Assembly: GCA_027486555.1 (NCBI GenBank)
Contig: JAIXOX010000043.1
Coordinates: 1 to 58,362 of the forward strand
Source of the DNA: Comamonadaceae bacterium
Lineage (GTDB): Bacteria > Pseudomonadota > Gammaproteobacteria > Burkholderiales > Burkholderiaceae_C
Reading direction: 5' to 3'
DNA: 58,362 nt
Shown: piece by piece, positions 74 through 17,622 of the stretch
How positions within the stretch are numbered: the stretch's first letter is position 1
Layout: every line of letters begins with the position of its first letter
Position numbers and translations under genes: made by a program
The notes under the pieces: model-generated
Database searches by the model: none
What the model saw: the letters and a program-made list of their open reading frames with translations, nothing else
What the model was told of the DNA's origin: nothing

Positions 74-505
74 TTAGATCTGGGGTGTTGCTGCCAGATG
101 GGATGACCGGACGCTTACGTCGCTGCTGGTAGTGCAGCCGCTCAGCAACAGCTCGGCCATGGCCACTTGGCTTGAAACACGCACCATCTCGGGCGTGAGG
201 CCAACCCAGATCGGGTATAGGCCTTGCAGCCAAGAAAACAGCTCGGCGTTTTGCACGCCCGGAATCGCCCGTGTGAGCGACTGGTACATGTGGTGGTGCG
301 TGTTGATCAGCCCCGGCACCACCACATGGCGGCGGGCGTCGATCACTTCATTCACCTGATTGACCAGTTCGTCGGTGTTTTGAGTGGCGGGGATGATGCG
401 TTCGATGCGGCCATCGCGGATCAAGAGCGAGGCGTCATTGAACTCATTTCTGGCATCGTCTTGTGTGGCGATGCAGCGGGCGCGGTGGATTAGCAGCGTG
501 AGCAT
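74..505 (-). pseudogene. Truncated 8-oxoguanine deaminase-like amidohydrolase (N-terminal fragment)
   Basis: The 143-residue product matches the N-terminal third of the 8-oxoguanine deaminase/atrazine chlorohydrolase-like amidohydrolase family, which deaminates oxidised purines or triazines at a metal centre. The start is the ATG at 505 (MLTLLIHRARC). The first metal-binding HxH is present (H70 and H72 in the NTHHH stretch), followed by the conserved MYQSLTR and ELLLSGCTTSSD stretches. Family similarity stops immediately after TTSSD, where a histidine-rich continuation is expected. An unrelated 15-residue tail then leads to a stop. Intact family members are about 450 residues and carry further metal-ligand His and Asp residues, all missing here, so the fragment cannot be an active deaminase. 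A perfect inverted repeat (41-66) lies next to the break. The family call is firm; the cause of truncation is inferred to be a rearrangement. Confidence 0.8.
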
Positions 506-831
506 GGACTTGTCCTGGGCAAGGGGTGAAACAAGTCGCGGCCGAATCCCCTGGTGCCCGCAAAAAGCGGGGAGGGCGAGCACCACGTTGCCGCGCGTCC
601 CGGGCTGTGCAGTGGAACAATTTTACGGGGGTGTGGTACGCACCATGGTGTTCATCACGCACAGCGCTTATATGCACTTGGTCTAGAGCCTGACTTAGTG
701 GTCTGTGGAGCGGAGTAAATACATTTTTCACATGGCACTTCCACTGGGGAGCCAAAAAGTTAAGTGGTAAGCACGGCGCATAAAGACATTAAAGAGCTTT
801 TGGAATTTTTTTGCGTTTCAGATAAAGCTAA
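506..831. other. Intergenic stretch between deaminase fragment and catabolic cluster
   Basis: No convincing gene was seen on either strand. The right part (about 700-831) is AT-rich compared with the flanks. A 10-bp perfect palindrome, CACCATGGTG, lies at 641-650. The stretch should hold the former promoter of the deaminase fragment and the downstream end of the leftward 0.8-10.6 kb operon. A small hairpin (CAGCTC/GAGCTG) sits at the very 3' end of the CoA ligase gene, but there is no clear U-tract terminator. Confidence 0.5.
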
Positions 832-2559
832 TCAGGTCAATTTCAGCTCGCTCAAAATGAGCTGCTTTAGCTTGTACTTCTCGATTTTGTTGGTCGGTGT
901 TATTGGAAGCGCAGTGACAAACCGTATATGTTTTGGCTGCATGAATTTGGGCATTACTTTAATGACGTGGACACGCAATTGAGACTCTGACAGAGTCAAG
1001 CCTTCTTTCAACTCAACGAATACGGCAATGTCGTCTTCGTCACCAACAAGTGCAGGCAAAGGAACCGCAGCACAGGCTCTCACGCTAGGATGACTGGCGA
1101 TCAAAAACTCAACTTCATATGAGGAAACGTTTTCGCCTCGCACACGGAAAAAACCGCCCATTCGGTCAATGAACAAATAGGTACCTGATCCATCGGTACT
1201 TTCTTTGCAAGCGTCGCCGGTGTGAAACCAGCAGTTGCGCAACACCCTGATCGTGACATCGGGTTTGCGAAAATACGAGTCCAGCAGCAAACCTGGAAAC
1301 CGGGGCCGGAACGCCAGTTGTCCCACCACACCCGGAGGACATGCGTTGTCATCCTCATCCAAAATTGCGACTTCCAACAAGGGGTTTGGCAAGCCCATGA
1401 AACCTTTAGGTAGCGGCTCACGCCCATTTACCACCAGACGTCCTGAGGACTTGCATGAAGCGACGTAGTCTTTTTTGTGCAGCCCCTTCCACATACTGAC
1501 CGGTGTGCCTTGGATATCACCCAACTCATCGATGATCCCTGTGAAGCCAACACCAGATTCAGTTTGACCAAAGCCACAGCTCACAAAATCGATACCAAAA
1601 CGTGTGGCTACTTCATTGTGAGTTGCAGGCAAAGGCTGCATGTGCACCTTATTGAGTGAGTTGGCTTTATCTGATGGCAACGGTTTTGCACTCATTAACC
1701 AGGGGATCATCACATCCAACAAAATACAACAACTGGCCTGGCATTGGGCAATGCGATCCCAAAACTTGGTGGGGCTGAACTTGTCCCACAACCCCACCGT
1801 GTTGCCTAACCAGATGGCCTTTGTCACCACAGCAAACGCTCCGCCGACATGGTACATCGGCAAATCACAATACAAGATATCGTCAGCTGTCGTCGCCATG
1901 CGCAAGGGATAACTGTAATGATTCATCCAGCGAAATGGTTGCACAACGCCCTTGGAGGGTCCAGTGGTACCAGAGGTGTAAACGATATTGGCAATGTCAA
2001 AGGGACTGCGTACCAGCTGTGGCAAGGGGGCAGAGCAAGCTTGTAATCGGCTTAAATCGGTACACTCAAACCGCGCGTCCATTGGCGCATTTTCGGTGGC
2101 TATGTAATCATGATCTGATGCTTGAGGGTGGTGCACAATCAGCCGCTGCAATTGCACTTCCGTTGCAATCTCATTCAAAATTTCAGCAAATGAAGGATCT
2201 GTGATCAAAGCGAAGGGTGCCGTATCGTTGAGCTGATATTGCAACAATGCACCACGGAAATTAAAATTCACCGGTGCAAAAACTGCACCTGCACGCCAAA
2301 TCGCGTACATAGCCAAAGCGCTTACCAGCGAGTTTCTAGTCAACACACTCACAGATTGACCTGGCTGGACTCCCATCTCAATCAAGCCCGCTGCCATGCG
2401 ATCGGTTCTTTTTTTGAATTCAGAAAAAGTAACTTGAATATTGTCTTCGCCGTAGTAGATATAAACCTTGTCGGGCATACGTAATGCACATTCGTCGAGC
2501 TTGTCCAAGACAATATCGCCCTGAGCCACCATGTCGTCAAATAATGCTTGCGGTGTCAT
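832..2559 (-). CDS. CaiC-like acyl-CoA ligase (AMP-forming)
   Basis: An ANL-superfamily adenylate-forming ligase of 575 residues. It activates a carboxylic acid to an acyl-adenylate and then an acyl-CoA in the cytoplasm. Visible signatures are the AMP-binding loop YTSGTTGPSKG (around residue 195), the GFGQTESG motif, the hinge region (WFHTGD ... IDRMGGFFRVRGENVSSYEVE) and the C-terminal PTNKIEKYKL stretch with the catalytic lysine. Overall it resembles crotonobetaine/carnitine-CoA ligases, but the acid substrate cannot be read from sequence. Two ATGs are possible. The one at 2559 has AGGAG seven bases upstream, whereas the one at 2565 almost touches it, so 2559 is preferred. It is the last gene of the leftward operon, 50 bp after the biotin carrier, which suggests it prepares or recycles the CoA ester handled by the carboxylase. 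Confidence 0.85.
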   Translation of the reverse strand: MTPQALFDDMVAQGDIVLDKLDECALRMPDKVYIYYGEDNIQVTFSEFKKRTDRMAAGLIEMGVQPGQSVSVLTRNSLVSALAMYAIWRAGAVFAPVNFNFRGALLQYQLNDTAPFALITDPSFAEILNEIATEVQLQRLIVHHPQASDHDYIATENAPMDARFECTDLSRLQACSAPLPQLVRSPFDIANIVYTSGTTGPSKGVVQPFRWMNHYSYPLRMATTADDILYCDLPMYHVGGAFAVVTKAIWLGNTVGLWDKFSPTKFWDRIAQCQASCCILLDVMIPWLMSAKPLPSDKANSLNKVHMQPLPATHNEVATRFGIDFVSCGFGQTESGVGFTGIIDELGDIQGTPVSMWKGLHKKDYVASCKSSGRLVVNGREPLPKGFMGLPNPLLEVAILDEDDNACPPGVVGQLAFRPRFPGLLLDSYFRKPDVTIRVLRNCWFHTGDACKESTDGSGTYLFIDRMGGFFRVRGENVSSYEVEFLIASHPSVRACAAVPLPALVGDEDDIAVFVELKEGLTLSESQLRVHVIKVMPKFMQPKHIRFVTALPITPTNKIEKYKLKQLILSELKLT

Positions 2560-2609
2560 GCCCATACTCCTAAGTTGTACATTTCATCCGGTCAATGTTG
2601 CGCAAAAAT

Positions 2610-2831
2610 CTATGCTTCTAAGCGGGCCACGATTTGCCCCTCTTTGATCGTTTCACCTTCATGTACTGTTATTTCCATGATCACACCAGCACGGGGAGCG
2701 TCGATGGGGATTTCCATCTTCATGGCCTCGATGATCATCACGCTTTCGTCCGTAGCAACGCGTTGGCCCACAGCGGCTTGGATCTTCCAGACTTGACCCG
2801 CAACTTCAGAGGTGATGTTCAAATTTGGCAT
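2610..2831 (-). CDS. Stand-alone biotinyl carrier domain (BCCP)
   Basis: A 73-residue single-domain biotinyl/lipoyl carrier. It contains the biotinylation motif EAMKMEIP, with K38 as the expected biotin site, between two symmetric beta halves (SEVAGQVWKI and PRAGVIMEI). A partner biotin carboxylase would carboxylate the biotin, which then passes CO2 to a carboxyltransferase. No biotin carboxylase is encoded in this operon. The only one in the window is the BC domain of the single-chain enzyme at 12286-15573, transcribed divergently. The gene lies between the ABC permease (14 bp upstream) and the CoA ligase. It probably forms the carrier subunit of an acyl-CoA carboxylase with the carboxyltransferase at 8364-9905. 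Confidence 0.9.
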   Translation of the reverse strand: MPNLNITSEVAGQVWKIQAAVGQRVATDESVMIIEAMKMEIPIDAPRAGVIMEITVHEGETIKEGQIVARLEA

Positions 2832-2845
2832 GTCAGTTCCTGAAA

Positions 2846-3715
2846 TTAAAGTCGTTGATTTGTTGGATCCAGCACTTTGCGTAATGACTCACCCAAACTG
2901 TTGAATGCCATGGCGGTCAGCAAAATTGCAATGCCGGGTGCATACATTTGCTCTGGCGCAATTTCCATGCTCTGATACGCACGAGCAAGCATCGCGCCCC
3001 AGCTCGGATCAGGAGGCTGAATGCCTAAACCAAGAAAACTCAGACTGGCCTCTGCCAGCAGAGCTCCTGCAAGCAAAATAGTGACTTGCACCAACACGGG
3101 TTGCAACGCATTTGGAAGGATGTGATGCCACAAAATATGTCGAGTTGACGAGCCAAAACAGCGTGCCGCATCAACATACAACTCTTGCCGAACCACTAGA
3201 GTTTTAGCCCGTGCCAAACGTGCCAACTGTGGAGCAAACACGATGCCGACGGCGATCATGCCGTTGGTCAGCCCAATGCCCAGTGCCCCAGTCACAGCAA
3301 TGGCCAGCACGATGGCAGGAAAAGACAACAAGGTGTCGATCATGCGCCCTACCAACTCATCGAGCCAGCCGCCCATGTATCCAGCCCAGATTCCAATGGG
3401 TACGCCCAAACACACCGCAATCGAAACGGCCAAGCAACTGGCGTACAAAGCAGCTCGCGCACCATACAACAATCGGCTGAAAATATCACGGCCCAAGTCA
3501 TCCGTTCCAAGCCAATTCAACTTCGATGGCGCAGCCAATGTGTTGCTCAGGTGCTGCTCAGTGGGGGAGTGCGGTGCGATCCATTCAGCTGTGAGTGAAA
3601 CAAACAGCAAGGTCAAAAGAAATACGAAGCTCAGCGCTGCCCGCTTATCGCGCTGCAGCCATTGAATAAGCCATTGCAAACCGCTAGGCCTGGAGATGGT
3701 GTCCATTTCCTTCAT
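2846..3715 (-). CDS. Oligopeptide/dipeptide-type ABC transporter permease (DppC-like)
   Basis: A 289-residue inner-membrane permease of the DppC/OppC class. It has an N-terminal cytoplasmic segment, a first membrane helix (FVFLLTLLFVSLTAEWIAP), the OppC-like NWLGTDDLGRDIFSRLLYGAR block, and the EAA-type loop (DAARCFGSSTRHILWHHILPN) that contacts the ATPases. It would form the heterodimeric channel with the DppB-like product. The gene starts one base after the dppB-like stop, so translation is probably coupled. The partner subunits (binding protein, two ATPases) are in the same operon. Known substrates of the family include peptides, opines, glutathione and various organic acids or sugars. The surrounding CoA ligases suggest a non-peptide carboxylate here, which is inference. 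Confidence 0.9.
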   Translation of the reverse strand: MKEMDTISRPSGLQWLIQWLQRDKRAALSFVFLLTLLFVSLTAEWIAPHSPTEQHLSNTLAAPSKLNWLGTDDLGRDIFSRLLYGARAALYASCLAVSIAVCLGVPIGIWAGYMGGWLDELVGRMIDTLLSFPAIVLAIAVTGALGIGLTNGMIAVGIVFAPQLARLARAKTLVVRQELYVDAARCFGSSTRHILWHHILPNALQPVLVQVTILLAGALLAEASLSFLGLGIQPPDPSWGAMLARAYQSMEIAPEQMYAPGIAILLTAMAFNSLGESLRKVLDPTNQRL

Positions 3716-3716
3716 A

Positions 3717-4682
3717 TCACTTCACTCTGGGGTCAATGACCCCGTACAAAAGATCTGCCAACAAGTTCAGTAGCAACACAATCACCACCATCGCCAGCAC
3801 GACACCTTGCACCACCGGGAAGTCCCGCTGGAGCGCTGCTTTCACAATCAAGCTGCCCATACCCGGGATGGCAAAAACTGCCTCAATTACCACTGTTGCG
3901 GCCAGCATACGGTTGGCCATCAAGGTCAATACGGTGAGCAAATTCACGCCGACATTCTTCATGCCGTGCTTCCATAAAATGAGCGTCGGCGATAAACCTT
4001 TGGCATGCAAAGTTCTTACTTGTTGTGACTGTAAAAGTTCCATGAGAGAGCCGCGAAGCTGTCGAGAAACTTCAGCAATCCCTCCGGCTGCCAGGGCCAG
4101 TGCAGGTAAGGTTGCATGGTGGATAGCACCCAAGGGGTCTGAACTGAAAACGAGAGATCCTGTGACCGGAAACCATGCCATGTCCAAAGCAAAAACGGAA
4201 ATCAACAACATGGCCAACCAAAAGCTGGGAATGGCCACTCCCAAAGAAGCCAAGGACATCACCAAACTGTCGACCCAGCCGCCCTGACGGCTGGCAGCCA
4301 TCACACCCAAGGGCGCGCCAATGATGAAAGAGAACAGCATGGCCAATACAACAATCAGCGCTGTGTGCGGCAAACAACGCGCAATTGAGACGCTGACCGA
4401 CTCTCCCGTCAGAAGCGATTTTGACAAATCACCCTGAACGGCGTTGCTTATCCAAGTGAAATACTGTTCCAAGAACGAGCGGTCAAGACCATAGAGTTTT
4501 CGTATCTCTTCAATCCGGACATCTGTTGCGTTATCGCCAGCCAAAGTGACAGCGATATCACCTGGTACCAGCTTTAAAAGACTGAAGGCGACAAAAGTTG
4601 CGAAAACCAGCACAGGTAATACCTGTGCCAGTCGTCGCCAGAACAGATCACCGCCGGGCATTGCGTTGAAGAACTTGTTCAT
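3717..4682 (-). CDS. Oligopeptide/dipeptide-type ABC transporter permease (DppB-like)
   Basis: A 321-residue permease of the DppB/OppB class. It has an N-terminal membrane helix followed by the typical periplasmic block (VPGDIAVTLAGDNATDVRIEEIRKLYGLD, split here by family convention), then further helices. The coupling loop around HAKGLSPTLILWKHGMKN and the C-terminal DLLYGVIDPRVK stretch are both hallmarks of this class. It pairs with the DppC-like permease one base downstream. The upstream neighbour is the periplasmic binding protein (29 bp gap). Product class is firm; substrate is unknown. Confidence 0.9.
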   Translation of the reverse strand: MNKFFNAMPGGDLFWRRLAQVLPVLVFATFVAFSLLKLVPGDIAVTLAGDNATDVRIEEIRKLYGLDRSFLEQYFTWISNAVQGDLSKSLLTGESVSVSIARCLPHTALIVVLAMLFSFIIGAPLGVMAASRQGGWVDSLVMSLASLGVAIPSFWLAMLLISVFALDMAWFPVTGSLVFSSDPLGAIHHATLPALALAAGGIAEVSRQLRGSLMELLQSQQVRTLHAKGLSPTLILWKHGMKNVGVNLLTVLTLMANRMLAATVVIEAVFAIPGMGSLIVKAALQRDFPVVQGVVLAMVVIVLLLNLLADLLYGVIDPRVK

Positions 4683-4711
4683 TTTTTGCCGTTTCAGAAT
4701 ACTCTTAAGTC

Positions 4712-6283
4712 TTAACCCAAAGACACTTCATTGAACTTGGGCTTGCCCAACAAATTTGGCCTGAAGCCTTTTACTCGTGCCCCAGTCGCCGCAATTTCGA
4801 ATTGGAAGGCAAGTGGTGCAGAAAAAGCCCCTTCCACCAAAATTCGTTGGATCTTGCTCAATGAGACTTTGCGCTCTTCGATAGATGATTTCTCGCGCGA
4901 CTCTTGAAGCAGAGCGGCCAAATCGGGCGAAACCTCGGCACGGCCAGCATTAAAGTAGGCCTCCTTGCCGTACATCAGCGCGTAGGACATGCTCGGATCT
5001 GGTCGACCAGTCCATGCAGAAAGCAAAGCGTCAAATTTTTTCTCAGCGCCAAAGAATTGACCTGAAATATCAGGAATAGTTCCGGTGGTGAATTTGGCCT
5101 TGATGCCCACCTTACCCAACTGCTCCATGATGATTTCATTGCGACGCATATTGTCTTGGTCGTTGTAGCCTCCAAAAGACAGTTCGATGTTGCTTAGACC
5201 CGACTCCGCTAACAATTTACGTGAACGCTCTGGGTCGAATTTGTACAGGTCTGCCAGTGATTTCTCATAAGCCCAATGCGATGTGGGCAGTTGCATGGCG
5301 GCCATTTCGCCGACGCCACCCATGCCCGCATTGATGAATGCATTGCGGTCAATTGCGCAGTTGATGGCTTGACGAACCTTGAGATTGTTAAGCGGGGCGC
5401 GACCGAAATTGAAGTAAATCTGAATGCAATACAGGGTAGGTGCCGTTACCAACGTAATATTTCTTGCTCTTTCAATCAAGGGCTTATACCTTGCCGACAA
5501 GGCATAAACCATGTCATTTTGACCAGCAGTTACAGAGCGCAATGCAGTTGCCTGATCTGTAATGACAGATATTTCAATGCCGTCGGCATAGGGCTCACCC
5601 GATTTCCAATAGTTCTCATTGCGTGTCACAACGACGCGTTGGTTGTCTTCCCATCTGACAAATTTCCATGGGCCTGCACCGACTGGTTTACGATCATGAT
5701 CATTGCCTAACTCTTTGACCGCTTTGGGTGAGACCATCATGCCTGCGCGATCTGAGAGCACAGCAGGCAGAACTACATCTGGTGCCTTGAGTGTTAGTTT
5801 GACTTGCAAGGCGCCCACAACGTCCACCGCAGTAATGCTGGCCAGATCTGCCTTGAGGTTGGAACGCGCATCCTGACGGTTTCGGTCCAAATTAAATTTC
5901 ACTGCTTGGGCATCACAAGGTGAGCCATCGTGAAAATTGATGCCCGGTTTGATCGTAAGTAGCATAGTCTTGGGATCCGGAAAACTCCAGTCCGCTAAGC
6001 CAGGTTTGGTTATCAGAGTGGCGTAATCCCATTCCACCAAGGTGTCGTAGAGAGTCCATAAAAACACATGGTCTGTGCCAGCACCACCAGTTGCAGGGTC
6101 CAAGCTTGAGGGATTGGTCAAGGCGGCCACTTTCAGAATGCCTCCTTTTTTCTTCGCTTCCTGCGCCCAGGTAGGCATGCCGACCAGACCAATGGCTGCA
6201 GAACCTGCAAGCACGGCTAGCGTCTGTCGACGTTGTAACTGCTGTTGACGGACATTCAATTTGGAATCAACTTGAGTTTTCAT
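4712..6283 (-). CDS. Periplasmic ABC solute-binding protein, family 5 (DppA/OppA-like)
   Basis: A 523-residue periplasmic binding protein for the adjacent importer. The N-terminus carries a probable twin-arginine export signal (RRQTLAVLAG) ending near MPTWAQEA. It is followed by the family-5 features: LDPATGGAGTDHVFLWTLYD, the KPGINFHDGSPCDAQAVKFN block and the VRQAINCAIDR motif. Length matches the family (about 500-540). A clear ribosome site, AAGGAG, precedes the ATG. The gene lies third in the transporter set, after the two ATPase genes (40 bp gap). Family-5 proteins bind peptides but also nickel, heme, opines and other compounds, so the ligand is open. The operon context points to an acid or amide that is later CoA-activated. 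Confidence 0.9.
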   Translation of the reverse strand: MKTQVDSKLNVRQQQLQRRQTLAVLAGSAAIGLVGMPTWAQEAKKKGGILKVAALTNPSSLDPATGGAGTDHVFLWTLYDTLVEWDYATLITKPGLADWSFPDPKTMLLTIKPGINFHDGSPCDAQAVKFNLDRNRQDARSNLKADLASITAVDVVGALQVKLTLKAPDVVLPAVLSDRAGMMVSPKAVKELGNDHDRKPVGAGPWKFVRWEDNQRVVVTRNENYWKSGEPYADGIEISVITDQATALRSVTAGQNDMVYALSARYKPLIERARNITLVTAPTLYCIQIYFNFGRAPLNNLKVRQAINCAIDRNAFINAGMGGVGEMAAMQLPTSHWAYEKSLADLYKFDPERSRKLLAESGLSNIELSFGGYNDQDNMRRNEIIMEQLGKVGIKAKFTTGTIPDISGQFFGAEKKFDALLSAWTGRPDPSMSYALMYGKEAYFNAGRAEVSPDLAALLQESREKSSIEERKVSLSKIQRILVEGAFSAPLAFQFEIAATGARVKGFRPNLLGKPKFNEVSLG

Positions 6284-6323
6284 TCGAGGTCTCCTTCAGG
6301 GTTAAAGTGTGTCAATGAAATTT

Positions 6324-7316
6324 TTAAGCCTTGCCCATGCTGGGGGTTTGCGTCAAATGACAAGCCACCCAATGATCCGGCTCCATTTCGCGCCAAGCGG
6401 GTTTCTCAGTTTCGCAAATTCTTTGTACGTGAGGACAGCGGGTGCTAAAGGGGCAGCCTGCAGGGGGATTCATCGGACTTGGGATCTCCCCCTTGAGAAT
6501 AATCCGCCGATCTTGACGCATGTGTGAAGGCAAGGGCAAGGGCTCAGCAGACAGTAACGCTTGGGTGTAAGGATGCATGGGGTGTTCGGCCATGGACTGG
6601 GCGCTGGCCAACTCCATCATGCAGCCTAGGTACATCACCGCAATGCGGTCACTGATATGCGAAACTACCGATAAATCGTGGGTGATGAATACATACGTCA
6701 GCCCAAATTCTTTTTGCAATTGCGCAAATAAATTCAGCACTTCACCGCGAATAGACACATCCAGTGCTGCAACTACCTCATCGCAAACTAAGACGCGGGG
6801 CTGCAGTGTCAAGGCCCGCGCAATGACGATGCGTTGCTTTTGACCACCAGAAAACTGGTGAGGATAGCGCCTTGCCTGCTCAGCCGTCAGGCCCACACGG
6901 GCCAAAGCATCAAGGGCTATTTTTTCCATGGCCAAGTGATCGCGACGACCAATGGCCACTAACGGCTCCATGACTGCATCGATCACCTTCATTCGTGGAT
7001 TCAATGCAGAATTGGGATCCTGGAAAATGATCTGAAATTGTCGCCGATGAGTTTGTAAAGCTCGACGATTCAAATGGCTTGGGTCAACCCCATCTTGCAA
7101 AATTTTTCCAGAAGTTGGTTCAACCAATGACACGAGTGCACGGCCTAAAGTGGTCTTACCCGAACCAGACTCGCCAATCACGCCAAAAGTCTCGCCTTCG
7201 CGTACCTGAAATGAAATCCCATTAACAGCTTTGACCGTTTGTCCATGACGTCCAGTTGGAAAATGAATATGCAGATCAGCAACCTGCAGCACTGATTTTT
7301 GAGGAGTTGCGGTCAT
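6324..7316 (-). CDS. Oligopeptide-type ABC transporter ATPase (DppF/OppF-like)
   Basis: A 330-residue nucleotide-binding subunit. Walker A is GESGSGKTT, the signature is FSGGQKQR, and Walker B is VLVCDEVVAALD. The signature-linked QIIFQDPNSALNPRM stretch and the C-terminal cysteine-containing oligopeptide/dipeptide extension (PAGCPFSTRCPHVQRIC) mark it as DppF/OppF type; this extension can bind an iron-sulfur cluster in some family members. The start overlaps the stop of the DppD-like gene by four bases, indicating translational coupling. It works as a heterodimer with that protein. Note Walker B reads DEVVAALD rather than the usual DEPVSALD, so proline is replaced by valine; the catalytic glutamate is kept. 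Confidence 0.9.
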   Translation of the reverse strand: MTATPQKSVLQVADLHIHFPTGRHGQTVKAVNGISFQVREGETFGVIGESGSGKTTLGRALVSLVEPTSGKILQDGVDPSHLNRRALQTHRRQFQIIFQDPNSALNPRMKVIDAVMEPLVAIGRRDHLAMEKIALDALARVGLTAEQARRYPHQFSGGQKQRIVIARALTLQPRVLVCDEVVAALDVSIRGEVLNLFAQLQKEFGLTYVFITHDLSVVSHISDRIAVMYLGCMMELASAQSMAEHPMHPYTQALLSAEPLPLPSHMRQDRRIILKGEIPSPMNPPAGCPFSTRCPHVQRICETEKPAWREMEPDHWVACHLTQTPSMGKA

Positions 7317-8362
7317 GTGACTTGCACTCCTGGTAAGCTTAATTCACCGGCACGAACGCAGCGCACTTTACGTTGACTACCAAGCACAATCTCAAGGACT
7401 TGTTCATTTTCGCAGTTGACGGTTGCAGATGCGCAACGAGGTTTAAAGCGACAGCCTACGATCATGTCCTGGGGTGCCGGAACACGTCCCGGAATTGAGC
7501 CTAAGGGCTCACGTCTCTTCGCAAAGCGCGGCAAGGAGCGCAACAACCCAGAGGTGTAAGGATGCAATGGTGTGAGTAAGGCACTGTCTACTGGGGCATC
7601 CTCCACCACTTGCCCGGCATACATGGTGACCATGCGTTGACAGGTCTCGGCCACCACACCTAAATCGTGCGTGATGAACAACAAGGAGGTGCCGGTCCGA
7701 TCACTCAACTCTCGCATAAGCTCCATGATTTGGGCCTGTACAGTGACATCCAAAGCGGTAGTCGGCTCATCCGCAATGATCAACTGAGGCTCACAAATTA
7801 GCGCCATGGCGATCATGATGCGTTGCCGCATACCTCCAGACATTTGATGAGGGTAATCGTTGTAACGTGCCTGCGGGGCTGCAATGCCCACCTGCGCGAG
7901 CAGCGATAGGGTCCTTTCCTTGGCTTCGTTTGATCGGTGTGGGAAGTGTGCGCGAAACGCGTCACTTATTTGATCGCCCACGGTGAACACAGGATCCAAT
8001 GCGCTCATGGGTTCTTGGAAAATCATGGCCAGCTCACGGCCTCGCAACGAGCGCATTTCGCGCTCCGGCAAGGCCAAAATATTGCGTCCATTCAACCAAA
8101 TTTCACCCGTGACCACTGCCACGGCTGGGTCAAGTAAGCGCATGAGCGCCAGCCCCGTGACTGTTTTACCGCATCCACTCTCACCCACCAAACCCAAACG
8201 CTCGGCTTTGCCTATTGAAAACGACACCTCGTTCGTCACAGGAAGAACCCCATTGCGAGTTCGAAACGCGATCGACAACTTTTTTACCTCCAACAGCGGC
8301 GGTGTGCTGGAGAGGGGGGTGCTTGAATCAATCGGGCTCATGGGGTTATTGAAGGGCTGCAA
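7313..8362 (-). CDS. Oligopeptide-type ABC transporter ATPase (DppD/OppD-like)
   Basis: A 349-residue nucleotide-binding subunit with Walker A GESGCGKTV, signature MSGGMRQR and Walker B LIIADEPTTALDVT. The C-terminal GRVPAPQDMIVGCRFKPRC extension is typical of DppD/OppD. It pairs with the DppF-like ATPase to power the importer. The first 20 or so residues are serine/proline/threonine rich, and an internal ATG at 8341 is an alternative start. The gene begins one base after the carboxyltransferase stop, tying importer and carboxylase expression together in one transcript. Confidence 0.9.
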   Translation of the reverse strand: MQPFNNPMSPIDSSTPLSSTPPLLEVKKLSIAFRTRNGVLPVTNEVSFSIGKAERLGLVGESGCGKTVTGLALMRLLDPAVAVVTGEIWLNGRNILALPEREMRSLRGRELAMIFQEPMSALDPVFTVGDQISDAFRAHFPHRSNEAKERTLSLLAQVGIAAPQARYNDYPHQMSGGMRQRIMIAMALICEPQLIIADEPTTALDVTVQAQIMELMRELSDRTGTSLLFITHDLGVVAETCQRMVTMYAGQVVEDAPVDSALLTPLHPYTSGLLRSLPRFAKRREPLGSIPGRVPAPQDMIVGCRFKPRCASATVNCENEQVLEIVLGSQRKVRCVRAGELSLPGVQVT

Positions 8363-8363
8363 A

Positions 8364-9905
8364 TTAAGGCCTGTATTGCACTCGGCTGGGCTGAGGCTTG
8401 ATCAACCGGTAAGCCAGTTGTGAAAATTCACACAAGAAGGTACGAGTCTGTCGAGGGTCGATAATTTCTTCCACGCCAAAAGCCTCTGCCGTTCTGAAGG
8501 GAGAGCGAATCGCCTCCAGACGCGCGGTAATCTCACGAATCATTTCTTGCGGATCCTTTGCTGCGGAAATTTCGCTGCGGTACGCAGCCTCAACTCCGCC
8601 CTCCGGTGGAATCGAGCCCCAATCGCCTGAGGGCCACGCATAGCGAAATCTGAAACGGGAGGCATTGCTGTGTGCTGCACCAGCCACACCAAAGGCTTTG
8701 CGCACGATGACTGAACACCAAGGTACCGTGGCTTGGTAAATCGCACTCAGCGCGCGGGTGCCGTGACGGATCGTAGCGGCGCGCTCAGCGTCGATTCCAA
8801 TCAGAAAACCTGGAATGTCGACAAAATGGACCACCGGCAAATGGAATGTTTCGGCCAAATCGACAAAACGTATGATTTTTTGTGCGGTATCTGCTGTCCA
8901 GGCACCCCCGTAGATGTAAGGGTCGCTTGCCAATACAGCGACAGTCCGACCTTCCAGTCTGGCCAAGCCGGTGATGGCAGAGCGCCCGTAATGCCCACCC
9001 CACTCAAAAAAGCTTTCCTTGTCCAATACATCTGACAAGATTTCACGCATTTTGTAAACTTTACGTCGGTCTGTCGGAACGATGCTGATCAAGCGCTCCT
9101 CACGCCGATCAGTTGGATCGCTCGATGGACAAATCGGTGGCAAGTCATCTACAGACGACGGCAGATAAGATAAAAATCGTGCAGCACGCGTCAAGGCTTC
9201 TTGCTCGCTGTCCACGACATCATCTATAGCGCCTGCTTTGGCATGCAAATCGGCCGACCCCAATTCGTCTTTGGTGAAAGTTTGACCGGTGCGGGCAACT
9301 ACCGGAGGGCCTGCAATGAACATGTGTGACGTGCCGCGAACCATCAACGAGTAATGGCTCGCCACCGCACGGGCCGATGCAAATCCCGCCACAGAACCCA
9401 GCACCAGAGACACTACAGGAACGGTGGTGAGGTTCAATGTCACCCAATCCCATGCAGGGTTGGCGGGCACATAAGTGCGGCCCAGTTTCTCAAGGGTCCT
9501 GATTGAGCCGCCAGAACCATCAATCAGCCTAACCAGCGGCAAACGCAACTCATAGGCCATTTGCTCTGAGGCCACAATTTTATCCATGGAGGCACCGTCT
9601 GATGCGCCGCCACGGACCGTGAAATCGTCTGCTGCTACGGCCACAGGTCGGCCTTGGATTTTTCCCCTTCCAAACAGAAAATTGGATGCCGCTGTGCCCA
9701 CATAGATCCCATCGGGTCCGTAATGCGCATTGCCAGTGATGGAGCCAATTTCTCGAAAAGTTCCAGCATCCAGCAAACCGTCAATACGCTCGCGTACTGT
9801 CTGTTTTCCGGCCGCACGGTGACGCGCTATTTTTTCCACCCCGCCCATTTCCCGTGCGTGCATTTGTCTTTGCGCGAGCTCGTCAACATTGCTTTGCCAA
9901 GTCAT
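8364..9905 (-). CDS. Acyl-CoA carboxyltransferase (PccB/MccB-like beta subunit)
   Basis: A 513-residue biotin-dependent carboxyltransferase containing both CT subdomains. It transfers CO2 from carboxybiotin to an acyl-CoA. Visible features are the N-terminal HRAAGKQTVRERIDGLLD block, the GRPVAVAADDFTVRGGA stretch, and the oxyanion-forming region with its glycine-rich loop IDGSGGSIRTLEKLGRTYV. The second half has FVDIPGFLIGIDAERAATIRHG and the RKAFGVAGAAH and YAWPSGDWGSIPPEGGV motifs. Length fits PccB/MccB-type subunits. It has no biotin carboxylase partner in its own operon. The 73-residue biotin carrier downstream is its likely donor, and the BC domain of the divergent single-chain enzyme is the nearest carboxylating activity. 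Its start overlaps the tetR stop by four bases. The acyl-CoA substrate cannot be assigned. Confidence 0.9.
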   Translation of the reverse strand: MTWQSNVDELAQRQMHAREMGGVEKIARHRAAGKQTVRERIDGLLDAGTFREIGSITGNAHYGPDGIYVGTAASNFLFGRGKIQGRPVAVAADDFTVRGGASDGASMDKIVASEQMAYELRLPLVRLIDGSGGSIRTLEKLGRTYVPANPAWDWVTLNLTTVPVVSLVLGSVAGFASARAVASHYSLMVRGTSHMFIAGPPVVARTGQTFTKDELGSADLHAKAGAIDDVVDSEQEALTRAARFLSYLPSSVDDLPPICPSSDPTDRREERLISIVPTDRRKVYKMREILSDVLDKESFFEWGGHYGRSAITGLARLEGRTVAVLASDPYIYGGAWTADTAQKIIRFVDLAETFHLPVVHFVDIPGFLIGIDAERAATIRHGTRALSAIYQATVPWCSVIVRKAFGVAGAAHSNASRFRFRYAWPSGDWGSIPPEGGVEAAYRSEISAAKDPQEMIREITARLEAIRSPFRTAEAFGVEEIIDPRQTRTFLCEFSQLAYRLIKPQPSRVQYRP

Positions 9906-10576
9906 TGTGATGACGCCTTCTTGGATGATTTTTTACGGATGCGTAAACCGATGACACGGCAAGACAACTTGGTTAATTCAGCCACCATCGCTTCTGAATT
10001 CAATTTGCCATGCGGTCGATACCAATAAAACAAAAAACCTGGCAAGCTGCCAGCAGCCAAAGCCGTGATTTTGGTCTCATCGAACTCCAACATTCCCTCT
10101 TGTCGGCCTTGCTCCATCAAGGCACACAAACGTGCATAGAAATGCCGTGCCATTTTTTTCTGTGCGGCACGGTATTCGGGTCGGTAAACCTGTGGTTCAC
10201 GGTAAGGAAAAAAGGCACTGGGGTAGTTAACTATCGTGGCACGGATCAACCGCTCCAAGCCTTTGCTGACGCGCAAGTGAGCTGGCAAAGCGGCATCCTC
10301 ATCAAACTCCAGCGCTGAAAAGCACTCGACAGTTGGGCGCCAAGACAGGGTTTCAAAAATATCTTGTTTGTTGTGAAAGTAGTAATAGACGAATGGTTTG
10401 CTGACACCTAATTTGTCGACGATCTGTGTCATGGTGGTGTTGGCATAGCCTTGTTTCGAAAACAATGCCTCGGCAACCCGCAAGATGCGCTCGCGCTTTA
10501 GATCCGATCGGGCATCGCCCTTGAAAGGCGGACTGCGCAACCCTGGAGGAGCATCTGGAAAGGTGGTCTTGTTCAT
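9902..10576 (-). CDS. TetR-family transcriptional regulator
   Basis: A 224-residue repressor. The N-terminal helix-turn-helix reads RILRVAEALFSKQGYANTTMTQIVDKLGVSKPFVYYYFHNKQDIF (a typical TetR DNA-binding domain, shown in pieces), followed by a ligand-binding helical domain. The ATG at 10576 is preferred because in-frame codons further upstream run into the divergent promoter region. It is the first gene of the leftward carboxylase/transporter operon and diverges from the CoA ligase at 10674. It is therefore the obvious local regulator of both units, probably responding to an acyl-CoA or the free acid. A candidate operator lies 15 bp upstream of its start. Confidence 0.9.
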   Translation of the reverse strand: MNKTTFPDAPPGLRSPPFKGDARSDLKRERILRVAEALFSKQGYANTTMTQIVDKLGVSKPFVYYYFHNKQDIFETLSWRPTVECFSALEFDEDAALPAHLRVSKGLERLIRATIVNYPSAFFPYREPQVYRPEYRAAQKKMARHFYARLCALMEQGRQEGMLEFDETKITALAAGSLPGFLFYWYRPHGKLNSEAMVAELTKLSCRVIGLRIRKKSSKKASSQ

Positions 10577-10590
10577 GATTGCTACTGAGT

Positions 10591-10607
10591 GGTAGTAATC
10601 TTCTACC
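10591..10607. promoter_or_regulatory. Candidate TetR operator in divergent promoter region
   Basis: GGTAG at 10591 and CTACC ending at 10607 form a 5-bp inverted repeat around 7 bases, 15 bp upstream of the tetR start. A leftward -35-like TTGCCA lies at the right side of this region, placing the repeat about where the leftward -10 would be. A second, looser repeat (CCTTG/CAAGG) surrounds the AT-rich TATATATT segment on the rightward side. Both are candidates for binding by the adjacent TetR protein. Confidence 0.35.
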
Positions 10608-10673
10608 CCTTGGTATATATTGGCAAGGTATCTTTCCAGAAAACTTCTAAGTAAAAACCCGATAGGAGACACC

Positions 10674-12281
10674 ATGCGAAAAGCCATTGAACTCGACGCC
10701 CCCTTGCACGAATACCTCCGGGCACACGCAAGGGCAACGCCAAATAAAGCGGCCTATCTTTGGTACGGTGCCCCAATCACATTTGCCCAAGTGGACCAAG
10801 CCAGCGATGTATTCGCTGCACGGCTCAAGGAGATTGGTGTCCAAAAAGGCGAACCAGTGGCTTTGTTTATGAACAATTGCCCGCAGTACGTCATTGCGCA
10901 TTACGGCATCCAAAAACTGGGAGCGATTGTCTGCCCCTGCGGTCCGCTGAACAAAGAACATGAACTTGAATACCAATTGAGCGACTTGCAAGCTCGGGTC
11001 ATTGTTGCTGCTAAAGACTTATTGAAAATTGTTGAAAACGTCAGAGAAAAAACAGCCATAACGCATGTGTTTGGTGTCCGGTATCAAGACCTCTTACCTG
11101 CTTCACCGAGCATCGATTTGCCCGCAGATCTCAAAGCTTTGCAGAACAGCGACAAGCATTTGCCAGAAGGTGTGGAAGACTTCTTGGACGTCATGAACAG
11201 CAGCGTCAAAGCACCTGTCGTGGAGATTGACATGGACAACGACGTGGCCTTGATGACCTACACATCAGGTACGACGGGATTGCCAAAAGGCGCCATGCTG
11301 ACCTATCGCAATGCACTGTTTAAAACACATGCTTCGGTGAGCACCAAGCACATCCATGATGGCGACGTGATTTTGTCCATCGCCCCGCTTTATCACATAG
11401 CTGGAATGTTGATGGGCGTCAACATTCCCATCTATTCCGGTGCCACCACGGTGCTGTTGTACCGTTTTGATCCTTTGACTGTTTTACAAGCGATTGAGCG
11501 CCACAAAGTCAGTTGGTGGTACAGCATTGCGCCAATGAATGTGGCCGTCATGGCTTTGCCCAATGCTCGGGATTTTGATTTGAGCAGTCTGCGTCAAAAC
11601 TCGGTGACGAGTTTCGGAATTATTTACACCGAGTCCTTGGCCCAGCAATGGAAGAGCTTTACCCCCAACTGTGTCTCGATGGAAGCCTCCTACGGGTTAA
11701 GCGAAACCCACACCATGGACACCTTTATGCCGGATCACGCCATCCGCTGGGGAACTCATGGAGTTCCGATTGAAGGCAATGAAATTTGCATCATTGATCC
11801 TGAAACGGGTGAGAAAAAATCAGCGGGGGAAATGGGGGAAATTATTTTGCGTAGCAAAGGGGTTTTTAAGGGTTACTGGAACAAACCCGAGGCCACCGCC
11901 AAGACCCTCAAAGAGGGATGGGTCTATACAGGCGACATGGGCAAAATCGATACGCAAGGTTATTTGACCTTCATTGGCCGCTTCAAGGAAATGATCAAGG
12001 TCTCAGGCTACAGCGTTTTTCCTGAAGAAGTTGAAGCCATTTTGATCAAGAACCCCGCTGTAGCCCAAGCGGCAGTGATTGGCGTGGAAGATGATCAAAA
12101 AGGAGAAGTGGTCAGCGCTTTCATTGTGCTTAAGCCCGGTGAGCAGCTAGATGCCGCCACCTTGATCGCGTGGTCGCGCGACAACATGGCGCTTTATAAA
12201 GTACCTCGTCATGTTCAATTTATTGCAGCTTTACCTGCAACGGGTTCTGGCAAAGTTTTGCGCCGAATGCTGAAAGATTAA
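10674..12281 (+). CDS. Acyl-CoA synthetase (long-chain fatty acid-CoA ligase-like)
   Basis: An ANL-superfamily CoA ligase of 535 residues. It shows TYTSGTTGLPKGAM (AMP-binding loop), a YGLSETHTMDTFM substrate/adenine region, the hinge GWVYTGDMGKID and GRFKEMIKVSGYSVFPEEVE, and the C-terminal PATGSGKVLRRML lysine. It forms acyl-CoA from an acid, ATP and CoA. The ATG at 10674 is chosen because GGAG lies eight bases upstream. It is the first gene of the rightward unit and the carboxylase gene begins four bases after its stop, so the two are co-expressed. The CoA ester it makes is the likely substrate for the single-chain carboxylase. It is a distinct subfamily from the CaiC-like ligase at 832-2559. 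Confidence 0.88.
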   Translation: MRKAIELDAPLHEYLRAHARATPNKAAYLWYGAPITFAQVDQASDVFAARLKEIGVQKGEPVALFMNNCPQYVIAHYGIQKLGAIVCPCGPLNKEHELEYQLSDLQARVIVAAKDLLKIVENVREKTAITHVFGVRYQDLLPASPSIDLPADLKALQNSDKHLPEGVEDFLDVMNSSVKAPVVEIDMDNDVALMTYTSGTTGLPKGAMLTYRNALFKTHASVSTKHIHDGDVILSIAPLYHIAGMLMGVNIPIYSGATTVLLYRFDPLTVLQAIERHKVSWWYSIAPMNVAVMALPNARDFDLSSLRQNSVTSFGIIYTESLAQQWKSFTPNCVSMEASYGLSETHTMDTFMPDHAIRWGTHGVPIEGNEICIIDPETGEKKSAGEMGEIILRSKGVFKGYWNKPEATAKTLKEGWVYTGDMGKIDTQGYLTFIGRFKEMIKVSGYSVFPEEVEAILIKNPAVAQAAVIGVEDDQKGEVVSAFIVLKPGEQLDAATLIAWSRDNMALYKVPRHVQFIAALPATGSGKVLRRMLKD

Positions 12282-12285
12282 GTTG

Positions 12286-15200
12286 ATGTTCAAAAAAATC
12301 TTGATTGCTAACCGAGGCGAAATCGCTGTACGCCTGATCCGTGCAGCACATGACATGGACATCCAGAGTGTGGCCGTGATGTCGCTAGACGATGCTCAAG
12401 CCCTGCATGGTCAACTGGCTGACGCAGCGGTGAGCCTTGAAGAAACCGGTCCTAGTGCCTACCTTAACTCAGCAAAGATCCTGGCTGTTGCCAAGGAGCA
12501 GCAGTGTGATGCGATACACCCGGGCTATGGATTTTTGAGCGAACGCGCCGATTTCGCGCAAGCCTGCACTGAAGCGGGCATCACATTCATTGGACCGGAT
12601 GCGTCACATTTAAAGTTATTCGGTGACAAAGCCGCAGCGAGACAATTGGCATTGGCCTGTGATGTTCCCTTGATGCCCGGTATCGACCAATCCGTGAGCC
12701 TGGCACAGGCGCAAGCCTTTTTCCAATCGCAAAATGGCGCTGGAGTGATGATCAAAGCCATTGGCGGCGGGGGCGGGCGTGGCATGCGCGCTGTATTCCA
12801 ATTACAAGATCTCCCCGAAGCCTATGCCCGTTGCGTATCTGAAGCACGGTCGGCCTTTGGTGTAGATGGAGTCTACGTCGAGCGATTGATGTTGCGCGCA
12901 CGGCATGTTGAAATTCAAGTCTTGGCCGATGGCGAAACCGCCATGAGTCTGGGTGATCGGGAATGCAGCTTACAAAAGCGTTTTCAAAAAGTGATTGAAA
13001 TTGCGCCCAGCCCCAGCATCAGTGCAGAGATGCGAAAAGCACTTACGCAAGCAGCATTGAAAATGGCTCGCCACTGTCACTATCGCAGCCTTGGCACATT
13101 TGAATTTTTGGTGGACACACAATCGAGCGATTTACCTTGGGTTTTCATCGAAGCCAATCCACGGCTACAAGTGGAGCACACCGTGACCGAGGAGGTAACG
13201 GGATTGGATTTAGTGCAATTGCAAATTCAGATAGCCGCTGGCATGCAGCTCTCAGATATAGGTCTAGATCCTGAACATCCACCAGCTCAAAATGGCTACT
13301 CGATCCAATTGCGAATTTGTGCAGAAACGCTGCTCGCTGATGGCCAAACGCAGTCCTCAAGTGGCACGCTTTCTCGATTTGATTTGCCCTCAGGCATGGG
13401 CCTTCGGGTTGACACCCATGGTTTCACGGGGGCGTCGCCATCGCCATACTTCGACACTTTGCTCGCGAAATTAATCGTCATTACTAAATCAGGCACTTTT
13501 TCTCAAGTCGCAAAACGCGCCACCAGGGCCTTGAAAGAATGCCGTTTGGTGGGCGTTAAAACCAACCTTTGCGTATTGCAAGCGCTGGTCGAGATGCCGG
13601 AATTTGCATCCCAGGATGTCCACACCAGGTTCATTGAGGAGCACCTGAACGAGATCGTTGGCCGCGCTAATGAATTGGCACTTCAAAGCCACGTTTCGTT
13701 ATTGGAGACTGCATCTGGAGAGCACTTGCCTGATGCTGTTTCCCTTCAAGATCATCAAAGGGGTGTGCGTTCGCCCATGGCTGCGAAATTAATACAGTTG
13801 CTTGTTAATGTCGGTGACGTGGTCCCAAAAGGCGCTCCTGTGGCCATCGTAGAAGCGATGAAGATGGAGCATGTGGTGCTCGCTGCCTCCTCTGGCCGTA
13901 TTGGTATGGTAGTTGCAATGACCGGGGCTTATGTTGCAGCAGACGAGATGCTTGTTGTGCTGGAGCCTGCAGATGTTGACATCAAAGATGTCGTACCTGA
14001 AGGTATTCAGAATTTAAATTCCCTGCGCAATGATTTAAAGAGTGTTCAAGATCGCCACGCGTTTTTATGGGATGAAAACCGTACCCAAGCTGTTGATAAA
14101 CGTCATGCACAAGGAGGGCGGACTGCTCGTGAAAACATTGCGCAACTTTGTGACGAAGGCAGCTTCATGGAATATGGCGCGCTTGCCATTGCCGCTCAAA
14201 CCCGTAGGCGCAGTTTGGATGACCTTATTTCCAACACACCAGCAGACGGCATGATTACAGGTGTGGGTACGATCAATCGCGATGAGTATGGCCCAGAAAA
14301 GTCGCGCTGCGTGGTGATGGCTTATGACTACACCGTGTTAGCAGGAACGCAAGGTTCCCGCAATCATCAAAAAAAAGATCGCATGCTGGGTCTTGCACTG
14401 AAGCTAAAACTTCCTGTGGTGCTTTTTGCCGAAGGCGGCGGGGGCCGCCCCGGTGATGTCGACAAACCTGTTGTTGCGGGTTTGAACAACCATACCTTTA
14501 GTCAATACGCAGCCCTCTCAGGTCAGGTGCCAGTGGTAGGCATTGCACATGGCCGATGCTTTGCTGGCAACGCGGCTTTGCTTGGATGCAGTGATGTGAT
14601 TATTGCTACTCGATCTAGCAACATTGGCATGGGTGGGCCGGCCATGATTGAAGGGGGCGGCTTAGGACGTTTCTCGCCAGAAGAAATCGGCCCCAGTGAT
14701 GTGCAGTCTCGTAACGGGGTGATTGATTTGCTGGTGGAAGACGAAGTTCAAGCCGTCATCAAAGCCAAGCAATACCTATCGTATTTTCAAGGGCGTCTAT
14801 CTGTCTGGCGCTGTGATGATCAGCGAAAACTGCGATTTGCAGTACCCGAAAACCGACTGCGCGTTTACGACATTCAAACAGTGATTCAGACGCTATGCGA
14901 TGAAGACTCGGTCTTGGAACTGCGGCAGGAATATGGTGTGGGTATCGTGACTGCCTTCGGACGCATTGAAGGACGATCAATCGGTGTCATGGCAAATAAC
15001 CCTATGCACCTAGGGGGTGCCATTGATGTAGACGCGGCCGATAAGGCAAGTCGTTTCATGCAACTCTGCAACACGCATGGCATCCCATTGTTGTCACTCA
15101 CCGACACTCCTGGCTTCATGGTTGGGCCACACATCGAAGCTCAAGCACAAGTCAGGCACACCAGTCGCATGTTTGTCACTGCAGCCAAATTAGCGGTGCC

Positions 15201-15573
15201 ATTCTTTGCCGTAGTTTTGCGTAAGGGCTACGGACTGGGCGCACAAGCTATGACAGCTGGAGGGTTTGACTCGCCTGTCTTTACGATCTCATGGCCAACG
15301 GGAGAGTTCGGTCCGATGGGTCTGGAAGGCTCTGTGCGTTTGGGTTTTCGTAAAGAACTCGAAGCTCAACCGGAGGGACCGGCGCGGGATGCTCTGTTCA
15401 ATCAATTAGTGGCCGACCGTTATGCTGAAGGCAAGGCCGTCAACATGGCGCAGACACTAGAAATTGATGCTGTGATTGACCCCTTTGAAACCCGAAATTG
15501 GCTTGTACGCGGACTCGATAGCACCACAATTCTCAAGGGACAATCGGGTAACGCATTCATTGACACTTGGTGA
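12286..15573 (+). CDS. Single-chain multidomain acyl-CoA carboxylase (BC-BCCP-CT), LCC type
   Basis: A 1,095-residue (about 120 kDa) biotin-dependent carboxylase in one chain. Residues about 1-450 are biotin carboxylase (ILIANRGEIAVRLIRAA start, ATP-grasp loop IGGGGGRGM, and EANPRLQVEHTVTEEVTG). Residues about 500-565 are the biotin carrier with EAMKMEH (biotin lysine K526). Residues about 590-1085 are the carboxyltransferase (ADGMITGVGTIN, AEGGGGRPGD, LTDTPGFMVG). Size and domain order match the bacterial long-chain acyl-CoA carboxylases, which form 720-kDa homohexamers, act on short to long acyl-CoAs, and in Pseudomonas aeruginosa were linked to use of particular carbon and nitrogen sources. 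The ATG at 12286 is used; an upstream in-frame TTG at 12283 is less likely. It follows the acyl-CoA synthetase by four bases. It may also lend its BC domain to the separate BCCP and CT of the divergent operon, which is inference. Confidence 0.92.
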   Translation: MFKKILIANRGEIAVRLIRAAHDMDIQSVAVMSLDDAQALHGQLADAAVSLEETGPSAYLNSAKILAVAKEQQCDAIHPGYGFLSERADFAQACTEAGITFIGPDASHLKLFGDKAAARQLALACDVPLMPGIDQSVSLAQAQAFFQSQNGAGVMIKAIGGGGGRGMRAVFQLQDLPEAYARCVSEARSAFGVDGVYVERLMLRARHVEIQVLADGETAMSLGDRECSLQKRFQKVIEIAPSPSISAEMRKALTQAALKMARHCHYRSLGTFEFLVDTQSSDLPWVFIEANPRLQVEHTVTEEVTGLDLVQLQIQIAAGMQLSDIGLDPEHPPAQNGYSIQLRICAETLLADGQTQSSSGTLSRFDLPSGMGLRVDTHGFTGASPSPYFDTLLAKLIVITKSGTFSQVAKRATRALKECRLVGVKTNLCVLQALVEMPEFASQDVHTRFIEEHLNEIVGRANELALQSHVSLLETASGEHLPDAVSLQDHQRGVRSPMAAKLIQLLVNVGDVVPKGAPVAIVEAMKMEHVVLAASSGRIGMVVAMTGAYVAADEMLVVLEPADVDIKDVVPEGIQNLNSLRNDLKSVQDRHAFLWDENRTQAVDKRHAQGGRTARENIAQLCDEGSFMEYGALAIAAQTRRRSLDDLISNTPADGMITGVGTINRDEYGPEKSRCVVMAYDYTVLAGTQGSRNHQKKDRMLGLALKLKLPVVLFAEGGGGRPGDVDKPVVAGLNNHTFSQYAALSGQVPVVGIAHGRCFAGNAALLGCSDVIIATRSSNIGMGGPAMIEGGGLGRFSPEEIGPSDVQSRNGVIDLLVEDEVQAVIKAKQYLSYFQGRLSVWRCDDQRKLRFAVPENRLRVYDIQTVIQTLCDEDSVLELRQEYGVGIVTAFGRIEGRSIGVMANNPMHLGGAIDVDAADKASRFMQLCNTHGIPLLSLTDTPGFMVGPHIEAQAQVRHTSRMFVTAAKLAVPFFAVVLRKGYGLGAQAMTAGGFDSPVFTISWPTGEFGPMGLEGSVRLGFRKELEAQPEGPARDALFNQLVADRYAEGKAVNMAQTLEIDAVIDPFETRNWLVRGLDSTTILKGQSGNAFIDTW

Positions 15574-15724
15574 AATAAAAATTTTCATTAATCCACAATG
15601 GTTCAAGCTTCATTTAAATAACCTCAATTGATTGGGTGTTGTCACCAAAGGAGAGAGTCACTTGCCAGTGGTCTCTGGAGTGAAAGTTAACTCTGCTCTT
15701 TGAGCCCTAAGTGCCGGTCGAACG

Positions 15725-16879: not shown

Positions 16880-16891
16880 CAAAATATTGGC

Positions 16892-17551: not shown

Positions 17552-17622
17552 TTCAATCTTTAAAAATTCATTTACACAATATATCAGTAAAAAAATTATC
17601 GCAGTCTGAGGCTGCTAAAAAG

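Follow-up and report, generated by a model that had tools for sequence, protein, structure and literature searches.

A carboxyltransferase-importer operon without its own biotin carboxylase beside a single-chain acyl-CoA carboxylase in a Comamonadaceae genome

In this study, we found that the genome of a freshwater, Limnohabitans-type member of Comamonadaceae contains two adjacent carboxylase gene sets flanking a TetR gene. They lie near one end of a 58,362-nucleotide stretch (the window, meaning the whole of the DNA analysed), which is contig C89 of a 3.83-Mb assembly in 150 contigs (92% complete). All parts belong to known families, and the composite operon, judged by gene order and conservation, is real. 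What is new in it, as read from the gene arrangement, is an importer-bound carboxylase that has no biotin carboxylase (BC) of its own and sits behind the regulator belonging to a single-chain carboxylase; in the open literature searched, we found no paper describing this gene combination. We favour, with some reserve, an account in which the locus would be a composite of two modules for acid capture, CoA linkage and carboxylation, with BC supplied in trans and a probable common TetR. The genes, strands and domains that an earlier note had assigned to both units were all borne out by ORF coordinates and a domain search of the stretch, and the features are as follows.

832..2565, minus strand: AMP-forming acyl-CoA ligase, 577 aa, last gene of the left operon (domain search)
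2610..2831, minus strand: free biotin carboxyl carrier protein (BCCP), 73 aa, EAMKM biotinylation motif at residue 35
2846..3715, minus strand: OppC/DppC-type permease (domain search)
3717..4682, minus strand: OppB/DppB-type permease (domain search)
4712..6283, minus strand: family 5 solute-binding protein SBP_bac_5, N-terminus resembling an export signal by eye
6324..7316, minus strand: DppF-type ATPase (domain search)
7313..8362, minus strand: DppD-type ATPase (domain search)
8364..9905, minus strand: carboxyltransferase (CT), PF01039, in a clade separate from the PccB-like CT of the same genome and in an operon without BC
9902..10576, minus strand: TetR regulator (domain search)
10578..10599, TetR-ligase gap: imperfect palindrome, second putative operator, 21/22 identical in Limnohabitans sp. 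2KL-51
10601..10616, TetR-ligase gap: putative TetR operator TTnTACC-N4-GGTA(G/T)
10674..12281, plus strand: AMP-forming acyl-CoA ligase (lig2), best models fatty-acyl-CoA synthetases, under all NCBIfam cut-offs listed
12286..15573, plus strand: single-chain BC-BCCP-CT carboxylase of the LCC/YCC family (LCC), 1,095 aa

The two modules would follow one logic, in which an organic acid is captured, linked to CoA and presumably carboxylated. In the left operon, the Dpp-type ABC transporter would import a solute, the AMP ligase would activate it, and a heteromeric enzyme made of the CT and the free 73-aa BCCP would carboxylate the acyl-CoA. The AccC-sized dedicated BC of relatives is absent from the cluster, and the BCCP would be charged in trans by a BC encoded elsewhere or next door. 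The right operon, ligase and LCC, would be a separate unit.

Both units are tightly packed. The end of TetR overlaps the start of CT by 4 bases and TetR thus heads the left operon, in which CT and DppD are 1 base apart, DppD and DppF overlap by 4 bases, and the gaps onward from DppF are 40, 29, 1, 14 and 44 bases, ending at the last ligase. The right-hand ligase adjoins the single-chain enzyme similarly closely. The likely starts (TetR 10576, second ligase ATG 10674, single-chain enzyme ATG 12286) are shifted slightly from the ORF calls, the single-chain ORF being 12283-15573 (+) and its 1,095 aa counted from ATG 12286. In the closest named relative, Limnohabitans sp. 2KL-51 (CT identity 97%), the block is collinear across window positions 125-17647 at 93% DNA identity, with proteins 87-99% identical, so the cluster genes are no chance reading frames. 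The coupling of import, CoA-activation and carboxylation genes proposed earlier is supported. The earlier count of one BC, two carriers and two CTs holds for the stretch and not genome-wide, where three further BC and seven further CT-family matches, some partial, were found. A caspase-domain protein (Peptidase_C14, 385 aa) adjoins the cluster at 15725-16882 (-). Beyond the block, about 22 kb (window 17647-39629) is absent between matching flanks in 2KL-51; this segment carries TctC, FMO, P450, TetR, alkyl sulfatase, CoA ligases, acyl-CoA dehydrogenase and paired DUF1254/DUF1214 genes. The first 18 kb of the window have a G+C of 0.50-0.54, and the rest 0.54-0.64.

The left operon contains a PF01039 CT and a biotin carrier, like heteromeric acyl-CoA carboxylases, and a Dpp/Opp importer complete with SBP_bac_5, two permeases and two oligo_HPY ATPases. 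A domain search of its proteins found no BC, as the earlier note had said, whereas some close relatives have one in the operon. The last ligase is an AMP ligase as described, and its previous label, CaiC-like, is loose (NCBIfam PRK06155 best at 298 bits, CaiC 183, both far under cut-off). The best model of the CT is the MmdA subfamily, at 307 bits, below the 998.8 cut-off. In alignment with PccB, the CT changes AGG to AGF and GGA to GVA near what we take to be the oxyanion-hole glycines, and its reaction could therefore differ from that of PccB. The CT is no isolated oddity, since 118 relatives were confirmed; 80 of them were kept, a sample skewed toward peptides of this query, with ORFs called by simple codon composition and gene ends approximate.

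Neighbourhood BLAST located the CT-importer-ligase set in 2KL-51, Polaromonas UBA5171 (contig stopping inside the ligase) and Rhodoferax NGEE_A_bin40. One Burkholderiales MAG also has the CT-importer set, on a contig that stops after OppB, and Albimonas pacifica has CT with SBP, BCCP and ligase, with no permeases in the stretch. Importer, CT and BCCP occur with no BC in the stretch in family genomes G180, G323 and G381, and family genome G299 (locus L184) has importer, BCCP, BC, CT and ligase together. The Rhodoferax operon (L204) runs CT-DppDF-SBP-OppBC-ligase-ligase-CT2-BC-BCCP, with a BC of 458 aa and a BCCP of 72 aa; the dedicated BCs of the Rhodoferax and G299 operons are 458-460 aa. Since these matching operons carry their own BC and BCCP, the left operon is, by gene content, a BC-less variant of the heteromeric acyl-CoA carboxylase operon and not a new pathway type. 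The earlier note had held that a dedicated BC co-occurring with the left CT and BCCP would count against BC sharing; Rhodoferax L204 and G299 L184 do have such a BC alongside the orthologues of the CT, BCCP, importer and ligase, though this cluster does not. CT neighbours gave no guide to the substrate, as the contexts are too varied: single representatives scanned had acyl-CoA dehydrogenases, NDP-forming CoA synthetase, family III CoA transferase, TctC, GTP cyclohydrolase II with DUF1688, and MFS or POT carriers. In Ferrovibrio-type loci L024 (11545-14079; neighbours domain-scanned) and L026 (assigned by clustering), CT overlaps a GTP cyclohydrolase II gene by 4 bases, followed by DUF1688, an arrangement that, we assume, resembles the URC uracil-catabolic set.

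The rightward enzyme is, on domain order and motifs, a canonical single-chain LCC/YCC-type carboxylase. BC, BCCP and CT stand in that order in one chain of about 1,100 aa, the biotinylation motif EAMKM at 524 is intact, and QKRFQKVIE, FIEANPRLQVEHTVTE and QLRICAE, which we take to be BC active-site motifs of LCC, are all found. The best solved match is LCC chain 4rcn (1,050 bits, residues 4-1076), and 5fif (CT part, 648 bits) and 5h80 (BC part, 438 bits) match partially. LCC/YCC enzymes are reported to be homohexamers active on C2-C16 acyl-CoA (PMC6491548). A search of the 399 family genomes at E <= 1e-200, with up to two candidates scored in each, gave LCC-type matches in 115. Counted by hand, 58 of these run near full length, and most others match from about residue 490 onward only. 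The BC part was absent from the 8 kb around each of seven such C-terminal-only matches with open frames of at least 990 aa. BCCP-CT proteins that lack BC and run to about 600 aa are common in the family and genus (for example G000:C97:65102-66625 and L251-L262); most share 56-71% identity with the C-terminal part of LCC, and no BC match lay near the gene in 12/12 neighbourhoods inspected.

LCC neighbourhoods were compared at 29 loci (20 family loci plus the window, L014, L016, L201, L202 and four genus loci), of which the window and L014 are near-identical. Ligase adjoins LCC in 17 of the 29, and LCC is alone in 11. The four genus loci have acyl-CoA dehydrogenases and SDR beside LCC and no TetR or ligase beside it, their neighbours being domain-scanned at one locus and assigned by length, order and start sequence at three. 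A TetR match is also present in 14 of the 17 lig2-LCC loci, a fifteenth, L175, being cut inside TetR. A LivK-type binding protein (Peripla_BP_6, domain-scanned in two cases) follows just past TetR, or the TetR position, in nine of the 17. In the window, 2KL-51 and Polaromonas, the CT-importer operon fills this position. Because that operon sits in the slot used by the LivK-type protein in about half of the relatives examined, one TetR probably governs both the left and right operons. The motifs at 10578-10616 have a putative operator function. Of the lig2-LCC loci, 14/17 carry TTnTACC-N4-GGTA(G/T) close to where the ligase begins; L168 and L178 lack both the motif and a TetR match, and L016 (Polaromonas), where TetR is there and the motif missing, is on this comparison a case against the putative operator. 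A second exact copy of the pattern in the same genome (G000:C30:8519-8538) was rejected as a regulon member, as it lies inside a 572-aa ORF. Beside the left-type unit in Rhodoferax, G299 and G180, the regulator is GntR/FCD.

A BC supplied in trans is likely, and would be required by the left CT/BCCP if the left CT carboxylates. Among the 80 relatives kept, 57 CT loci on genome contigs are flanked by 5 kb or more on each side; 37 of these have no BC, 11 a separate BC and 9 an LCC. BC in trans is, on such counts, the rule in this CT family if these CTs carboxylate, with LCC a possible donor and not a necessary one. As the most likely donor, we would name a housekeeping BC (AccC or an alpha subunit) charging the left BCCP, a reading that could well go either way. 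BC genes were examined in 23 genomes. Six small OCS116/PS1-like genomes with BC-less CT have two BC matches each, and in five of these the pair consists of an AccC-size BC (446-451 aa) and an alpha-size BC (659-677). The Acidimicrobiia MAGs G416, G419 and G434, which have CT and BCCP, gave one BC match each, and the BC search gave no match at all in G412; many of these small genomes and MAGs are incomplete. 2KL-51 has eight BC matches, including 454-aa and 499-aa frames besides alpha subunits and LCC. In our genome no AccC-sized BC was found, and since the assembly is 92% complete in 150 contigs, a dedicated BC may lie elsewhere in the genome.

That the single-chain enzyme next door charges the left BCCP through its BC domain is, to us, a tentative second choice, and the broader claim that LCC would be BC donor for two CTs, its BC charging the free BCCP or its own BCCP serving the extra CT, seems rather unlikely. 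It draws on Limnohabitans and Polaromonas, where the two units adjoin and share a divergent regulator, and on CT-LCC pairs 64-237 bases apart in seven genomes, six of Cupriavidus and one of another member of Burkholderiaceae; the stretches around these pairs gave no further BC or BCCP match. In the CT tree (quick method, 98 rows), these seven rows form one clade (100) among rows mostly with BC and BCCP, and the Cupriavidus-type arrangement is a separate pairing of the CT family with LCC. There (L077, L079, L085, L086, L087, L090 and L093; L077 scanned, the others by clustering), CT-LCC is followed by tandem family III CoA transferase and TctC-type receptors. Within our own family, however, the genomes whose CT lacks a BC tend to be those that have LCC. 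Seventeen of the 18 CT-bearing genomes were scored, G360 (8.2-kb contig) being left out. Full-length LCC is present in 7/7 with BC-less CT (G000, G016, G180, G217, G323, G349, G381) and in 3/10 with BC-bearing CT (G023, G141, G152, G163, G224, G236, G294, G299, G300, G365), namely G224, G294 and G299; no LCC was found in the other seven or in G360 (search at E <= 1e-70). The difference has a one-sided value of 0.006 by genome, same-genus genomes not being independent, but by genus it is 4/4 versus 2/6 (one-sided 0.07). Moreover, outside Burkholderiales, full-length LCC was found in only five of 55 BC-less-CT genomes (L064, L020, L042, L071, L021) and not in the other 50, BC absence being judged on the DNA examined, which is short for some genomes, with Albimonas included in the 55. 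Two Burkholderiales MAGs (G424, G429; L039, L044) also have BC-less CT and no LCC match. The literature describes a BC tethered in the LCC hexamer, and our search of it found no report of LCC BC acting on a foreign BCCP. Thus, the earlier idea that LCC serves both CTs keeps the two-genus adjacency with a common TetR, the Cupriavidus pairs and the family correlation in its favour, but BC-less CT genomes without LCC rule LCC out as a general requirement. Sharing is plausible, and the evidence does not single out LCC as donor. We regard as doubtful the still wider notion that BC-less CTs, with or without BCCP, and LCC-type BCCP-CT fusions form a widespread BC-borrowing class, in which Burkholderiales LCC would repeatedly have replaced a dedicated BC as donor for a second CT.

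It is also possible, although unlikely, that nothing functional ties the two neighbouring units together and that the left one landed beside a resident ligase-LCC unit. The neighbourhood co-occurrence check suggested earlier showed the units mostly not conserved together. Among the 399 family genomes, 58 have near-full-length LCC and 18 have CT, and the two are adjacent only in our genome and 10-15 kb apart in two; the same composite recurs in 2KL-51 and one Polaromonas MAG. In the genus (n=90 genomes), a CT orthologue of at least 97% is present in two, our genome and 2KL-51, and a 40-46% relative in ten others, whereas LCC at 66-94% identity, full or contig-cut, occurs in ten, our own copy aside (G546 ambiguous), and about 44 (hand count) have the BCCP-CT form only. 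In the LCC tree (34 rows), the LCCs of the window and 2KL-51 group within those of the genus, of which the four inspected have no TetR or ligase beside them; Polaromonas adjoins G075 and Rhodoferax lies elsewhere. Against the reading without a functional link stand the TetR-CT overlap at the head of the left operon and the same composite in Polaromonas, whose CT pairs with Rhodoferax instead (support 99). In the CT tree, a seven-row set (support 99) holds the window and 2KL-51 together with Polaromonas, two copies of a single Rhodoferax locus, a Burkholderiales MAG and Albimonas. TetR and ligase trees were mostly without resolution. The discordant trees imply that CT and LCC histories differ; the composite may have arisen on two occasions, or some lineages may have lost it.

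A left CT and BCCP acting as transcarboxylase or soluble decarboxylase, needing no BC, would fit the MmdA match and the lack of BC near many CT relatives, but is very improbable given the BC beside CT in orthologous operons and many Burkholderiales relatives and the absence of an MmdB-type membrane decarboxylase subunit, as in Na+-pumping decarboxylases, among the nine left-operon proteins. A transcarboxylase would call for a second CT that uses the same BCCP on a different substrate, and the LCC CT domain nearby is a candidate for it.

The account of two modules with BC in trans predicts that a "self-contained" single-chain enzyme, or the BC of fatty-acid synthesis, services extra carboxyltransferases. 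If such sharing is true, the pairing of carboxylase genes with substrates in annotation would change. Furthermore, the recurring logic of receptor, CoA ligase and carboxylase, together with the predicted operator, means that the substrate can be sought through induction.

Compared with known systems, the window enzyme shares the BC-BCCP-CT order, the length of about 1,095 and a near full-length match with LCC 4rcn and the related "Carboxylase" 5fif/5h80, but unlike these it stands behind a CoA ligase and TetR, beside a BC-less CT operon. Heteromeric acyl-CoA carboxylases (PCC/XCC group) have the same PF01039 CT with separate BCCP, whereas the left operon has no BC gene, a CT in its own clade and importer genes. 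Another close system, Rhodoferax operon G001:C199 (L204), has the same CT, Dpp importer and ligase at 63-74% identity, and differs in its second ligase, second CT, own BC and BCCP, and GntR/FCD regulator. A precedent for sharing is mycobacterial AccA3, which is reported to interact with AccD4, AccD5 and AccD6, one BC-bearing subunit serving several CTs (PMC4347857). The subunit shared there is a BC-BCCP alpha subunit, whereas the left unit here has a free BCCP and candidate donors.
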